DNA of 54,908 nt from Verrucomicrobiota bacterium (lineage in GTDB: Bacteria > Verrucomicrobiota > Verrucomicrobiia > Opitutales > Opitutaceae). Below are positions 33,760-40,059 of the stretch, one piece after another. Position numbers and translations under genes: made by a program. The stretch lies in assembly GCA_016871775.1 (NCBI GenBank), contig VHCI01000006.1, positions 1 to 54,908 on the forward strand. The letters run 5' to 3'. How positions within the stretch are numbered: the stretch's first letter is position 1; every line of letters starts with the position of its first letter. A model generated the notes under the pieces. The model searched no databases. It was not told the origin of the DNA and saw nothing but the letters and a program-made list of their open reading frames with translations.

Positions 33760-35286
33760 TCAACCGCCGCCAGGCAGCGACCGGACGTTGGCCTCGCGCA
33801 GCACCATGGCCGCGGGCTCAAGCTCGGCCGGGAGGCGTTCGCGGTCGCCGGCCAGCTCAGCGGTTTCGCGCGCCCCGGGCAGCAGGCGCCCATTGAACGA
33901 TCCCACCGCGCTGTTGTAGGCCTTGCTGGCCGTCTCGAGTCCCTTGCCGACCTTCTCCAAGTGCTCGGCGAAAACGCTGATGCGCCCGAGCAGTTCTCGG
34001 GCGCTGTCGCCGATCCGGCGGGCGTTCTCGTTGAGCTTGGCCTGCTGCCACTGCAGCGCGCAGGTGCGCAGTAGCGCGAGCAGCGTGGAGGCGGTGGTGA
34101 TGATCACCCTCTGGTCGAGGGCCTCCTCGTAAACCGTGGCATCCTCCTCTAAGGCGGCGATGAGACCGCTCTCCAGCGGGACGAAGAGCACGGTGATCTC
34201 CACCCCGCCGCCAAGGGCTTTGGCGTACTCGCGGGAGGCGAGGCCGCGCACGTGAGTGCGCAGCGCCTGAGCGTGCGCGGTGCGCCGGGCGGCGCGCTCG
34301 GCGTCGGACAGCGCGAGGTCGAGGGAATCGAGGTAGGCGCTAAGCGGGACCTTGGCGTCGATCGGGACAAAGCGCCCGCCGGGCAGCCGCACGGTCATAT
34401 CCGGCCGCAGCCGATCCCCCTCGTCCCCCTGCACGCTGGCCTGCTCGCTGAAATCGACGTTGTCGACCAGCCCGGCCATCTCGGCAATGTTGCGGAGCGA
34501 GACCTCGCCCCAGCGGCCACGCTGCCGGTTGTCCCGCAGCGCGCTGGAGAGCGTCTGGGCGGCGGTGGACGCCCGTTGCTGCAGGTCGGAGATCTGCTTG
34601 AGCTGCTCGCCCAAGGTCTTGGCGTCGCCCTCTCGCCGTTCGCCGAGTTCCCGGACCAGCCGTTCGTTTTTCTCCAATTGTTCCTTGAGCGGAGTGAGCG
34701 TCGCCTCGATCTGCTTTCGCCGCGACTCCAGCTCCTGCTGGGAGAGGGAATGCTGGCTCGCGAAGTGCTCCTTGGCCTGTTGGAAAAGCGCCTGCGCGCT
34801 TTGCCGGAGGAGGTCCCCGCCGGTGGCCTTGAATGTGTCGGTGAGCGCGGCCTTGGACTGCTCGATGGTGGCCTTCAGGTCGGCGATGGACTTCTCCCGC
34901 TCGGCGAGCACCTTTTCCCTCGCGGCCTCCCGCTCGGCCATTTGGGTCGTCGCCTGCCCCAGCTGCTGTTGCGCCGCGGCGAGCTCGCGGCCGGTCTGCT
35001 CGCCTCGGGCCCGCTCGGCGTCGACTTCATTGCCCAGAAGGCAGACCTGTTCCCGGGCGGCGTCGCGTTCCTTCTGCGCGGCGACCGCGCCCTGCTCGGC
35101 GGTGCGCAGGTCTGCGCGGAGCGTGGCCGCCTCGGTACGGAGCGACTGGAGTTCCTGCTGGGCAACCTGAGCCACCGCGAGGGCCTGCGCCGTGGCGCGA
35201 GCCTTGAGCAGGCAGAAAACGGTCGCGCCGGCCGCGCCCAGCACGCCCCCGCCCGCGAAACACAACAGCAAGGGGAAATCATCCAT
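33760..35286 (-). CDS. rmuC: DNA recombination protein RmuC
   Basis: 508 residues. A single N-terminal transmembrane helix (about 7-28) is followed by a long coiled coil (about 35-240, rich in A/E/K/Q heptads) and the RmuC nuclease-like domain: R-G-R-W-G-E-V-S-L-R-N-I-A-E, D-M-T-V-R-L-P-G-G-R-F-V-P-I-D-A-K-V-P-L and V-I-I-T-T-A-S-T-L-L-A-L-L-R-T. RmuC limits inversions at short repeats in E. coli. The family's DAK motif is present. It converges with the PQQ-like gene (75 bases apart) and diverges from the 27-residue-repeat gene across 165 bases. Confidence 0.93.
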   Translation of the reverse strand: MDDFPLLLCFAGGGVLGAAGATVFCLLKARATAQALAVAQVAQQELQSLRTEAATLRADLRTAEQGAVAAQKERDAAREQVCLLGNEVDAERARGEQTGRELAAAQQQLGQATTQMAEREAAREKVLAEREKSIADLKATIEQSKAALTDTFKATGGDLLRQSAQALFQQAKEHFASQHSLSQQELESRRKQIEATLTPLKEQLEKNERLVRELGERREGDAKTLGEQLKQISDLQQRASTAAQTLSSALRDNRQRGRWGEVSLRNIAEMAGLVDNVDFSEQASVQGDEGDRLRPDMTVRLPGGRFVPIDAKVPLSAYLDSLDLALSDAERAARRTAHAQALRTHVRGLASREYAKALGGGVEITVLFVPLESGLIAALEEDATVYEEALDQRVIITTASTLLALLRTCALQWQQAKLNENARRIGDSARELLGRISVFAEHLEKVGKGLETASKAYNSAVGSFNGRLLPGARETAELAGDRERLPAELEPAAMVLREANVRSLPGGG

Positions 35287-35451: not shown

Positions 35452-35928
35452 ATGAGACTCCTCCTCCCCCTCCTGGTCCCCTTGACCCTAGCGGCCGTGG
35501 ACGCGGGCAACCTAACGGTCACCACTCTCGCGCGGCCGGATGCCCTCGGGCGCGTGCGCAGCGAGGTGCGGGACCCGCAGGGTCGCAAGGTGGGCACCGT
35601 CGAGACCCGCGCGCAGCCGGACGCCCTCGGCCGGGTGAAAAGCGTGATCGTGGATGCCTCCGGGAAGCGGATTGGCACCGCCGAGACGACCGCCACCCAT
35701 GACGCGCTCGGGCGGGTAAAGACCACCTTCCGCGACGCGACCGGGCGCACCACCGGCACCGGCGTCACCCCGGCCCGGCCCGACGCCCTCGGCCGCACCA
35801 CCACCGTGTTCCGCGACTCTCAGGGTCAGCGCACCGGGACCGCCGTTTCCCGCCCGCCGGACGCCTTGGGCCGGGTGAAGACGGAGGTGACGGGCCAGGT
35901 GCCGATCAAACGACCTGGCTCACCCTGA
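35452..35928 (+). CDS. Small exported protein of 27-residue tandem repeats (D-A-L-G-R-V repeats)
   Basis: 158 residues from ATG 35452, with a signal peptide (M-R-L-L-L-P-L-L-V-P-L-T-L-A). The mature part is almost entirely repeats. Five copies of P/H-D-A-L-G-R begin 27, 27, 27 and 26 residues apart, each unit running D-A-L-G-R-V, a charged turn D-x-x-G-R/K and G-T-x-x-T/S. The corresponding DNA period is 81 bases. The D-A-L-G-R and D-x-x-G pattern recalls YD/Rhs beta-hairpin repeats, but with a different unit length and no core toxin or transmembrane part. No enzyme motif. Function unknown; probably a small beta-solenoid or envelope protein. Confidence 0.8.
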   Translation: MRLLLPLLVPLTLAAVDAGNLTVTTLARPDALGRVRSEVRDPQGRKVGTVETRAQPDALGRVKSVIVDASGKRIGTAETTATHDALGRVKTTFRDATGRTTGTGVTPARPDALGRTTTVFRDSQGQRTGTAVSRPPDALGRVKTEVTGQVPIKRPGSP

Positions 35929-36389
35929 GGCGCCGCGGGCGAAAGGTGCGCGCAACTTTCTGCCGCGGACCGGCCGGCAGGGGATTGCCCACGCCCGTTG
36001 GGGCAAAAGTACTCACGGACCGGGGACGGATGCCCTGAACCCACGGGCGCCGAGCCACCCGCGGGTCTGGCGCGCGTCGCGGTCATCTACCAAAAGCAAA
36101 TCGGCAACCGGGAGGCGGAGGCCTTCGACGCCAGACGCAACGGCGACGGCCGGTCCGGGCACCTAAACTCACTAGAAAAACCTCTAGCCGTGGTGTGACG
36201 GCTCGAGCTGAGGAGCCAGAACTCAGCCGGAACGATGCGGTCGATCGGGTCACATCGCGGTGATCTGCCGGCACCTTTCTGAGGCCCTTTCCCGTCGCGT
36301 TCAAACTCCGGGTACTACTCGATCTCTCGCCGCGGAAATGCGCTCCCCAACTCGCCCCGCTCTTCCGCCTCCAATGGCATCGTTCCGCC
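35929..36389. other. 460-base intergenic region containing repeat copy B
   Basis: No supported gene. Repeat copy B fills 36222-36389. The left part (35929-36221) has only a short Ala/Gly/Arg frame (35998-36198) without protein-like character. Confidence 0.45.
36222..36389 (+). repeat. Dispersed ~170-bp repeat, copy B (ends at the clpC stop codon)
   Basis: Aligns on the plus strand with the minus-strand reading of 26525-26357 (copy A). It ends flush with the clpC stop (36390-36392). Copy A begins on the tsaD stop. So both copies touch the 3' end of a minus-strand gene, but in opposite orientation relative to it. Confidence 0.7.
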
Positions 36390-38924
36390 TTAGGACGCCA
36401 CGCCGCTGGCGGCGGCCGGGGGAGTCTTCTGCTTGAAGATCAACTTGTCACCGTCCCGCACGACCAGGCAGGGCTCGCCATCCTTGACCTCCCCACGCAG
36501 GATCGCCTCCGCCAGCGGGTCCTCGAGGTAGTGCTCGACGGCGCGCCGGAGCGGACGCGCCCCATACTTCTCGTCGTAACCCTTGTCGATCAACAGCTGC
36601 TTGGCCTCCGGGGAGAACTCGAGCGTGATCTTCCGCTCGTCCAGCCGGCGAGCAAACTTCGCCGTCTCAAGATCCACGATTTTAACCAGGTCGTTCTTGT
36701 CCAAGGGCCGGAAGAAGATGATGTCAGAGATGCGGTTCAGGAACTCGGGCTTGAACACCCGCTTGGACTCCTCAAGCACCTTCTCCCGCATCCGCTCCGA
36801 GTCGTTGAAGCTGGCGGCGGCGGCGGCGAAGCCCATCGAGGTCTGGCGCTGCAGGAGCTGCGCGCCGACGTTCGAGGTCATGATGATGATCGTGTTCCGG
36901 AAATCCACGGTGCGGCCGAGGGAATCCGTTAGGCGGCCGTCCTCCATGATCTGCAGCAGCAGCTGCAGGGCGTCCGGGTGGGCCTTTTCGACCTCGTCGA
37001 ACAGGATGACCGAGTAGGGCCGGCGGCGCACGGCCTCAGTGAGCTGGCCCCCCTCCTCGTAGCCCACGTAGCCCGGGGGCGAGCCGACGAGGCGGGAGAC
37101 GGCGAACTTCTCCATATACTCGCTCATATCGATCTGGATGAGCGCCTCCTGGTTGCCGAACATCTGGGCCGCGAGCTGCTTCGCGAGCATCGTCTTACCG
37201 ACGCCCGTGGGACCAACGAAGAGGAAAGAGCCAATGGGCCGGCGCGGGTCCTTCAGGTCGGCGCGGGAGCGGCGCAGGGCGCGGGAGATCGAGACGGCGG
37301 CAACGTCCTGGCCGATGACGGCCTTCTGCAGCTCGGTCTCTATCTGGAGCAGCTTTTCGTTGTCCTTCTTCTCCATCCGCGAGAGCGGAATGCCGGTCCA
37401 GTCGGCGACCACCTGCATCATCAGGTCCTCGTCAATGGCGACGCGCTTCTCGTCCCGGCGCTTCTTCCAGCCGGCAGTGATCTCCTCCTGGCGGGCCCGA
37501 AGCTGCTTTTCCTGGTCGCGGAACTTGGCCGCCTCCTCAAAGTGCTGATCGCTGATCGCCTTCTCCTTCTGGGCGCAGATGGCCTCGATCTGCGGGGTGA
37601 GGTCCTCAATGTCCGCAGGCCGGCTGAGGGCGGCGATGCGGGCGCGGGAACCGGCCTCGTCCATAACGTCGATCGCCTTGTCCGGCAGGAAGCGCCCAGT
37701 GATGTAGCGGTCGGAAAGTTTGGCGGCGGACTCGAGGGAGGCGTCGGTGAAGGTGGCCTTGTGGTGGTCCTCGTACTTGCCGCGAATGCCTTTAAGGATG
37801 AGCACGGTGTCCGCGACCGAGGGGGCCTCGACCTTGACGGACTGGAAGCGGCGATCGAGGGCGGAGTCTTTCTCGATGTGCTTGCGGTACTCGTTGAGGG
37901 TGGTGGCGCCCACGCACTGGAGCTCGCCGCGGGAGAGGGCGGGTTTGAAGATGTTGGAGGCGTCCATCGCGCCCTCGGCAGCGCCAGCCCCGACGATCGT
38001 ATGGAGCTCGTCGATGAAGAGGATGATGTTCTTCGCCCGGCGGATCTCGTCCATCACGGCCTTGATGCGCTCCTCGAACTGGCCGCGGTACTTGGTGCCG
38101 GCGACCATCAGGGCGAGGTCGAGGGTGATGACCTTCTTCTCGGCTAGGATCTCGGGAACGTTGCCGGAGGCGATCTCCTGGGCCAAGCCCTCGACGATGG
38201 CGGTCTTGCCAACGCCGGCCTCGCCGATAAGGACCGGGTTATTCTTGGTGCGGCGACAGAGGATCTGAATAACGCGGCGGATCTCGTTGCGGCGGCCGAC
38301 CACGGGATCCATCTCGCCCTTGCGGGCGAGCTCGGTGAGGTCGCGGCCGAAGGCCTTAAGGGCGGGGGTCTTGACCTCCTTCTTTTCCTCCGCCTGGGCA
38401 CCTGGACGCTGCGAGCTGCCGGCAGCGGTCTCCTCGCCAGGCTCACCGCCCTCCCCGGACTGGCCTCCGGAGAACTGGGGGTCGAGCTCCCGAAGGATCT
38501 CGTTGCGGGTGCGCTCGATGTCGATCTCGAGGGACTTGAGCACCCGGGCGGCGACGCCCTCGCCTTCCCGCAGGAGGCCGAGGAGAATGTGCTCCGTGCC
38601 CACGTAAGAATGGCTGAGGGCCTTGGCCTCCTTGCCGGCGAGCGCGAGCACCTTCTTGACCCGTGGGGTGTAGGGGATGCTGGCCTGCGTCTTGGTCTCC
38701 TGGCCGGTGCCGACCTGCTTCTCCACGGCGGCGCGGACGGTCTCAAGGTCGAGGCCCATTTTCTGGAGCACGCTGACGGCGACGCCCTGGCCCAGCTTGA
38801 TCAGCCCGAGCAGGAGGTGCTCGGTGCCGACGTAGTTATGATGGAACCGGTCAGCCTCCTTGCGGGCCAGCGCGAGGACCTGCTGCGCCCGGGGAGTGAA
38901 ATTGTTCATTGGTTCTTGGGACAT
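36390..38924 (-). CDS. clpC: Clp protease ATPase subunit ClpC
   Basis: 844 residues from ATG 38924; ATG 38909 is an alternative. The frame upstream overlaps mcsB and was not used. It has two N-terminal Clp repeats ([16 protein letters not shown] and [10 protein letters not shown]), a first AAA+ module with Walker [10 protein letters not shown], an inter-domain UVR-type helical pair ([11 protein letters not shown]...E-E-A-A-K-F-R-D-Q), and a second AAA+ module with G-P-T-G-V-G-K-T-M. ClpC unfolds proteins for ClpP; in Bacillus it recognises substrates phosphorylated on arginine by McsB. The mcsA and mcsB genes lie directly upstream (mcsB 22 bases before). clpP is not in the window. Confidence 0.95.
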
Positions 38925-38946
38925 GGGAGAGGAGGGTTCGGCGAGT

Positions 38947-40059
38947 TTAGGTGGCGGCGCCGGGGTTCGCGGGGCGGACTTCGGGGCGCGGGAAGGAGGC
39001 AAACTCGGCGCGGAGCCGGGTGGCACGGAGGGCATCGCGCAGGGCGGGATCGCACTCACCGCGGTGGGCGTGCTGGAGGTGGCCCGGTTGCGCCTCGATC
39101 AAGAGGCGATCAATGAGCGAGCGCTGGTCGTCCGGGAACAGGCCCAGATCGATGCCGAGGCGGAGCAGCGACAGCAGGTTCATCGCCTCACCGGAGGTGA
39201 GCAGGTGCGAATTTTTCAGGATTCCGTAGGCGCGGCCGATCTTGTCGTAAAGCTTGCCCGCATCGGCCTCGAGGAGCTTGGCCCGGGCGTTTTGCTCATG
39301 CTCGACGATAGACTGCAACACGCTGCCGAGGCGCTTGAGGATAACCTCCTCGGCCTCGCCGAGAGTCGTCTGGTTGGAGATCTGGAAGATGCTGCCGCTA
39401 GCGTCAGAGCCCTCGCCGAAGAGGCCGCGGACGACCATTCCGAGCTGGTTAACCGCGCGGACGACCTTCTCCATCTGGTTGGAGATGACGAGCGCCGGAA
39501 GGTGCATCATCGCGGAGGCGCGCATCGCGGTGCCCAGATTGGTGGGGCAGGCGGTGAGAAAGCCGAGCGTCGGGGAGAAGGCGAAGTCGAGGTGCTCCTC
39601 GAGGGCAGAGTCGAGGTCGTTAATCGCGGTCCAGGCGCGCTTCAGATTGAGGCCGGCGCGGAGGACCTGGACGCGGAGGTGATCTTCCTCGTTGACCATC
39701 AGCGAGAAGGCTTGGTCGCGGCTAATCAGGACGCCCGCGCCGCCCTTCGAGCCGCTGAGCTCCCGGCTAATCAGATGGCGTTCGACGAGGATCTGGCGCT
39801 CGAGTTCGCCGAGGTCGGAGACGGCGAAGTTGAAGCAGCGCTTCATCTGCGGCAGGCGGGCGACCGCGTCGCGGCAGGTAGACAGGATTCGCTCGCGCTG
39901 GGCGGGTTTCGCCCAGCCGGGGAAGGAGTGCCCAACCACGTTGCGCGCGAGGCGGATTCGCGTCATCAGCACGATGGCGGTCTTGGTGCTGCCCGGATCG
40001 GTGAGTTCCGACGGGGCGCTCAGCAGCGCGGCTAGGGATGTGGAATCCTCACGGGGCAT
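38947..40059 (-). CDS. mcsB: Protein-arginine kinase McsB
   Basis: 370 residues with the guanido-kinase fold: V-L-M-T-R-I-R-L-A-R-N (30-40), N-E-E-D-H-L-R (123-129), C-P-T-N-L-G-T-A-M-R-A-S with Cys171, and G-E-G-S-D-A-S-G-S. McsB phosphorylates arginines of damaged proteins and of CtsR; pArg marks them for ClpCP. A C-terminal R-D-x-x-R-A motif (Arg341, Asp342, Arg345) matches the pArg-binding allosteric motif known for Firmicute McsB. That argues for a true protein-arginine kinase rather than a phosphagen kinase. Its ATG overlaps the end of mcsA by 11 bases and clpC follows 22 bases downstream. Confidence 0.92.
   Translation of the reverse strand: MPREDSTSLAALLSAPSELTDPGSTKTAIVLMTRIRLARNVVGHSFPGWAKPAQRERILSTCRDAVARLPQMKRCFNFAVSDLGELERQILVERHLISRELSGSKGGAGVLISRDQAFSLMVNEEDHLRVQVLRAGLNLKRAWTAINDLDSALEEHLDFAFSPTLGFLTACPTNLGTAMRASAMMHLPALVISNQMEKVVRAVNQLGMVVRGLFGEGSDASGSIFQISNQTTLGEAEEVILKRLGSVLQSIVEHEQNARAKLLEADAGKLYDKIGRAYGILKNSHLLTSGEAMNLLSLLRLGIDLGLFPDDQRSLIDRLLIEAQPGHLQHAHRGECDPALRDALRATRLRAEFASFPRPEVRPANPGAAT

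Follow-up and report, generated by a model that had tools for sequence, protein, structure and literature searches.

Does a short open reading frame that encodes a leader and little else but 27-residue repeats specify a real protein, and if so, what fold do the repeats build and what might that fold bind? The question is raised by a locus in a freshwater Verrucomicrobiota bacterium (assembly GCA_016871775.1, contig VHCI01000006.1), of which a stretch of 54,908 nt, hereafter the window, was analysed. The explanation that we favour, at a probability of roughly 0.55 for the whole, is that the frame, hereafter labelled P0001, encodes an exported, closed five-petal beta-flower that binds an anionic ligand. 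The gene, the predicted parts of its product and its two neighbours are as follows.

33760–35286, − strand: rmuC, divergent neighbour, outside the system (Pfam RmuC, E 2.3e-84)
35452–35928, + strand: P0001, coding sequence of the 158-aa repeat protein (translation, homologues, dN/dS 0.08–0.20)
35452–35505, + strand: likely signal peptide, residues 1–18 (by eye; leader kept in L004–L007 and L002; low pLDDT)
35512–35526, + strand: N-terminal strand, residues 21–25, half of the split fifth petal (DSSP of the AlphaFold2 model; would pair with the C-terminal strand)
35551–35610, + strand: predicted petal 1 hairpin, residues 34–53, tip D41-PQG (AlphaFold2 model)
35632–35691, + strand: predicted petal 2 hairpin, residues 61–80, tip D68-ASG (AlphaFold2 model)
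35713–35772, + strand: predicted petal 3 hairpin, residues 88–107, tip D95-ATG (AlphaFold2 model)
35797–35850, + strand: predicted petal 4 hairpin, residues 116–133, tip D122-SQG (AlphaFold2 model)
35875–35895, + strand: predicted C-terminal strand, residues 142–148, second half of the split fifth petal (AlphaFold2 model)
36390–39059, − strand: clpC-like AAA+ gene, convergent neighbour, outside the system (Pfam Clp_N, AAA_2, ClpB_D2-small)

P0001 is a genuine, conserved gene. Its frame is open throughout, from the ATG at 35452 to the TGA at 35928 (158 aa). Both strands carry long open frames in this region, as a spurious frame in high-GC DNA opposite or beside rmuC would have it, but in all 21 pairs of seven close homologues (P0001, L004–L007, L002 and L011) dN/dS lies between 0.08 and 0.20 and third-position substitutions predominate, so that the frame must be in use. 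Homologues reach down to ~30% identity in other genera and on a Bacteroidota plasmid, where the frame is annotated as a protein; together with the dN/dS values they refute the spurious reading, whose probability we regard as negligible.

Within the clade of P0001, the gene lies between rmuC and clpC, which are encoded on the other strand. In the interval that separates it from clpC, the window also contains the remnant of an alpha/beta hydrolase gene (36058–36174, + strand), 39 residues with 67% identity to the 3′ portion of a gene for a 431-aa alpha/beta hydrolase that is intact in L004 (5891–7186); the remainder has been lost in the window. In an all-against-all comparison of 26 neighbourhoods, including that of P0001, no neighbour is conserved across genera, which disposes of an operon or partner gene as a candidate and leaves no genetic clue to function. 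Neighbours are conserved within close clades only: rmuC and clpC in the P0001 clade, and ribonucleotide reductase in three g7 members.

The repeat of P0001 is an old protein-level repeat, kept by protein selection. Five DALGR motifs follow one another at spacings of 27, 27, 27 and 26 residues, and comparison of the protein with itself at a lag of 27 gives 51 matches in 113 positions, where 2,000 shuffles give 10.3 ± 3.0 and never exceed 27 at any lag between 5 and 59. The nearly regular 27-residue units beginning D-A-L-G-R, described in an earlier note on this DNA, are thereby confirmed. The 81-bp tandem repeat of the same note holds only in that 81 is the top lag in the DNA, with just 54% identity; it is not a recent array. 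Pairwise identity among the 72-base cores of the four complete units is 60–62%, and the locus is not listed as an array by Tandem Repeats Finder, a combination that rules out a recent DNA tandem array and indicates that the repeat is old and maintained by selection on the protein. The repeat-number variation that the note thought plausible is likewise ruled out among close relatives, since the repeat region measures 133 residues in seven of seven close homologues, but it does occur between distant subfamilies, with five or six units and three in phages. Unit identity to the homologues is 0.92–0.99 in register and 0.53–0.54 out of register (three pairs with P0001; values for L014 and L018, whose units were misplaced by parsing, are excluded).

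The distribution of the gene is patchy. The source genome has a second copy (L002, 83% identical) on a different contig, and a genome scan yields five loci in Opitutia/Verrucomicrobia metagenome-assembled genomes that are 83–94% identical to P0001. A profile of 13 family members (A1) matches 8 of 387 genomes across the phylum and, at E ≤ 1e-6, 15 of 252 genomes of the family Opitutaceae, the source genome being included in both counts; several genomes of the same genus are without the gene. An earlier family search had 20 of 200 genomes passing E ≤ 0.001, including the doubtful L022–L026, of which L022–L024 resemble anthranilate synthase (by eye) and L025–L026 large RHS proteins. Several further rows are damaged: L021 and L027 contain stops, L015 runs off the end of its contig and L020/L029 are frameshifted. 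L003, on contig C148 of the source genome, is a short 3′ fragment of the repeat gene and L030 is likewise a fragment; as sequences, both look like evidence of duplication followed by decay of the repeat gene. In a related genome, the second-copy gene (L008 4854–5435, the same gene as L028) keeps the repeats but has lost the start that encodes the leader, suggesting decay or relocation. A plasmid of Persicobacter psychrovividus (Bacteroidota) carries a relative with five units, recorded there as a hypothetical protein.

At its N terminus, P0001 has a hydrophobic leader, MRLLLPLLVPLTLAAVDA, which by eye looks like a signal peptide; residues 1–18 likely serve as such, and the protein is probably secreted. 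The mature part is hydrophilic (GRAVY −0.61) and has no cysteine for a lipoprotein. An AlphaFold2 model, built from a shallow alignment of five rows (A2, P0001 plus four homologues; 87–93% identical to P0001), has a mean pLDDT of 82.5 and a pTM of 0.74, with block means of about 86–94 over residues 21–150. By DSSP, the model consists of ten strands and no helix: an N-terminal strand (21–25), four hairpins (34–40/46–53, 61–68/73–80, 88–95/100–107 and 116–122/127–133) and a C-terminal strand (142–148), the first and last of which would close the ring. Short loops of 5, 4, 4 and 4 residues (DPQGR, ASGK, ATGR and SQGQ) alternate with long loops of 8, 7, 7, 8 and 8, and [DNEQ]xxG stands at the turn of each of the four predicted hairpins (DPQG, DASG, DATG and DSQG).

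This arrangement recalls the beta-flowers, which were first described from predicted structures and which, according to Durairaj et al. 2023 (PMC10584680), are shallow symmetric barrels of four-, five- or sixfold symmetry, built of short antiparallel strands that number 8, 10 or 12. In the same account, one side bears long loops and the opposite side short ones (9 versus 4 in the published example), their hairpin tips carry [DNEQ]XXG, the barrel has a hydrophobic channel, some members are lipoproteins, and they share a Pfam clan with Tubby, whose Tubby-like relatives are phosphoinositide binders or scramblases (PMC10584680). The Pfam families concerned are PF21784, PF21785 and PF21786, in clan CL0395. 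P0001 resembles a five-fold beta-flower in its ten short strands, predicted to form five hairpin petals, and beta-flowers at large in its unequal loops (4–5 versus 7–8 residues), and in its [DNEQ]xxG tips; its family likewise has five- and sixfold members. It differs from them in that its family scores under the Pfam cut-off, is very basic, combines a signal peptide with the absence of a lipobox, carries PDALGR or PNxFGET in the long loops and includes three-unit phage forms; unlike many beta-flowers, the model also has no central helix. On P0001, PF21785 (Bflower_2) scores 16.1 bits (E 0.011), under the cut-off of 38; at E ≤ 0.1 it matches 7 of the 13 A1 members (best 0.0081) and none of eight more distant ones, and a search of the source genome with this profile returns nothing. 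Reversed versions of eight family proteins match neither Bflower_2 nor Pfam RHS_repeat (0/8 each) but reach E ~0.001 to unrelated families, so single weak matches mean little.

Foldseek finds no match to the model in the PDB or BFVD at E ≤ 0.001, and no relative of solved structure found by sequence is convincing (best E 0.54). VIA-align places the model with nitrobindin 2a13 (Z 7.7, rmsd 4.1, 115 aligned), the aromatic prenyltransferase EpzP 4ee7 (Z 6.7, rmsd 2.9, 114 aligned) and the TULP1 Tubby domain 3c5n (Z 6.0, rmsd 3.4, 114 aligned), three structures that we take to be closed barrels. Most of its Z values are 5–8, however, which the tool also gives to unrelated structures that share a common arrangement, so that by themselves they count for little. 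Its list showed no beta-flower entry. The Tubby C-terminal domain (TULP1; 3c5n and 2fim, Z 6.0 and 5.7 over 113–114 residues) is an antiparallel beta-barrel like the model, but an intracellular one of twelve strands round a hydrophobic helix, whereas P0001 has ten predicted strands and no helix; no sequence similarity between the two was found. P0001 probably has the beta-flower architecture, and on the basis of the model we would place it with the beta-flowers by architecture, outside the Pfam sequence families, and not file it as an Rhs protein. Most likely, its sequence forms a new branch within a fold that was described not long ago; the sequence family appears not to have been described previously, while the fold itself is known, and literature searches on beta-flowers, YD/RHS in Verrucomicrobia, MORN/Tubby, five-fold repeats and Opitutaceae found no paper on it. 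The secreted beta-repeat scaffold proposed in the earlier note is thus supported, by the conserved leader and ten confident AlphaFold2 strands, but its novelty as a scaffold is not, as strand count, loop pattern and tip motif match the published five-fold beta-flower.

RHS/YD repeat proteins form a large shell with a core domain and a C-terminal toxin, and P0001 could be a small remnant or relative of such a shell, with one side open or as a component of a larger cage. It shares the DxxGR hairpin motif with these repeats and scores 34.8 bits with Pfam RHS_repeat (PF05593), above the cut-off of 22; 6 of the 13 A1 members also match at E ≤ 0.1, against none of the eight reversed controls, and the large RHS-like L025 and L026 are weak matches (E ~7e-4). 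The unit of 27 residues is nevertheless unlike theirs, P0001 has not a single YD dipeptide or tyrosine, NCBIfam YD_repeat_2x (TIGR01643) reaches only 10.7 bits against a cut-off of 15.8, and within the 158 aa there is no shell and no toxin or core domain match in Pfam. Among the eight more distant members, L050 alone passes the RHS_repeat cut-off (27 bits); L047, L048, L053 and others have no match at E ≤ 0.1. The family further shows a fixed number of five or six units, a leader of its own, scattered genera, and no toxin, core domain or neighbour, and either convergence or an ancient hairpin common to both may account for the shared DxxG(R) hairpin. A genuine YD/RHS protein was considered and downgraded on the failure of YD_repeat_2x and the absence of YD and tyrosine, and we judge the remnant improbable. 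The difference from YD/Rhs repeats drawn in the note stands on those same two points and gives way where RHS_repeat passes. Still more improbable is a beta-repeat that stays open and assembles by stacking or polymerising its units, as a fibre, adhesin or solenoid. The regular repeats and a phage version of just three units would suit it; the unit number is, however, constant in seven close relatives and five or six in distant ones, and in three six-petal members a pair of cysteines near the termini points to closure.

The predicted beta-flower comes in several sizes, counted by eye across the family. Five petals are found in the P0001 clade, L012, L013, L014, L049 and L082; six petals, one of them split, in L016, L017, L018, L019 and L047; and six complete hairpins in L050, L051, L053 and L055. 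The count is ambiguous in L048 and L052, which have an N-terminal strand and five complete hairpins. Among subfamilies with five or six petals, the split petal shifts its place. As a closed ring leads one to expect, terminal cysteine pairs occur: L050, L051 and L055 have exactly two mature cysteines, one just before the first strand and one just after the last, likely a disulfide clasp that closes the ring. One six-petal array is part of a larger protein, L047 1396–2703 (− strand, 436 aa), where it lies C-terminal to a low-complexity SYxxPxSYQP stretch; the N-terminal part we take to resemble an SHD1 domain.

Three-unit versions with a leader are encoded on five viral contigs of two phage types. 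By PHROGs, genes of the L061 contig encode both terminase subunits, small and large, together with an endonuclease and a single-strand DNA-binding protein, and the three-unit genes of L057 (4992–5276) and L061 (4920–5231) lie ~1–2 kb downstream of the terminase large subunit. In their product, two hairpins are flanked by single N- and C-terminal strands, which makes six strands in a model of mean pLDDT 65.4. A profile of the phage version matches 5 of 387 genomes, all previously matched by A1, so the phage and bacterial sets are one family. INPHARED phage records contain no match to the family, and in PHROGs the matches are weak throughout and fall on families without an assigned function, the best being that of L048 at 7.4e-5. 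A broader picture, which taken whole we consider unlikely, is that of a widespread, undescribed family of exported basic beta-flowers in Verrucomicrobiota and on a Bacteroidota plasmid, variable in ring size and opening, disulfide-clasped in one family, and with a three-petal half-flower in phages that may dimerise or join host subunits into a six-petal ring.

Charge offers a lead to function. All 23 members tabulated are basic, with pI 9.5–11.7 and a net charge of +4.7 to +14.8 (mature start by eye or at residue 20; the table leaves out L017 and L047, and the figures cover family members alone). In the long loops, the position three residues past the glycine is lysine or arginine in 27 of 35 P0001-clade motifs and in 30 of 31 in distant Opitutaceae, a preference that is weaker in other bacteria and phyla (9/19) and in phages (1/4); short-tip counts, being incomplete, are set aside. 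With its leader removed, P0001 would be an exported, soluble five-petal beta-flower, in which a mini-barrel of ten strands is closed by the four 27-residue hairpins and a fifth petal shared between the first strand and the last, with the short [DN]xxG tips on one rim and the longer PDALGR loops on the opposite rim. Its Arg/Lys-rich ring may bind an anionic ligand of the envelope or the environment, such as lipopolysaccharide, phospholipid head groups, an acidic polysaccharide or nucleic acid. The anion-binding site would recur once per petal, and a repeated or polymeric anion is the economical reading. The putative anion-binding role, taken by itself, is a tentative proposal.

Its main rival, unlikely in our estimate, has the barrel carry or shield a lipid or other apolar ligand in a hydrophobic channel, as opposed to binding a polyanion at the surface. 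The published channel, the lipoproteins among beta-flowers and the phosphoinositide binding or scramblase activity of Tubby-like proteins (PMC10584680) all speak for such a ligand, as do the nitrobindins and TULP1 among the VIA-align rows, but the mature protein is hydrophilic at the GRAVY given above, lacks a lipoprotein cysteine and shows no helix in its model. As a search of one literature collection for PF21785 returned PMC10584680 alone, no beta-flower function is at hand.

That the Pfam RHS_repeat label can fall on secreted proteins that are not Rhs proteins calls for caution in its use. The three-petal phage form is unusual. Beyond this, a compact secreted family with visible units and natural three-, five- and six-petal versions would be tractable for solving the fold, and these natural versions would provide a way to ask what sets ring size.
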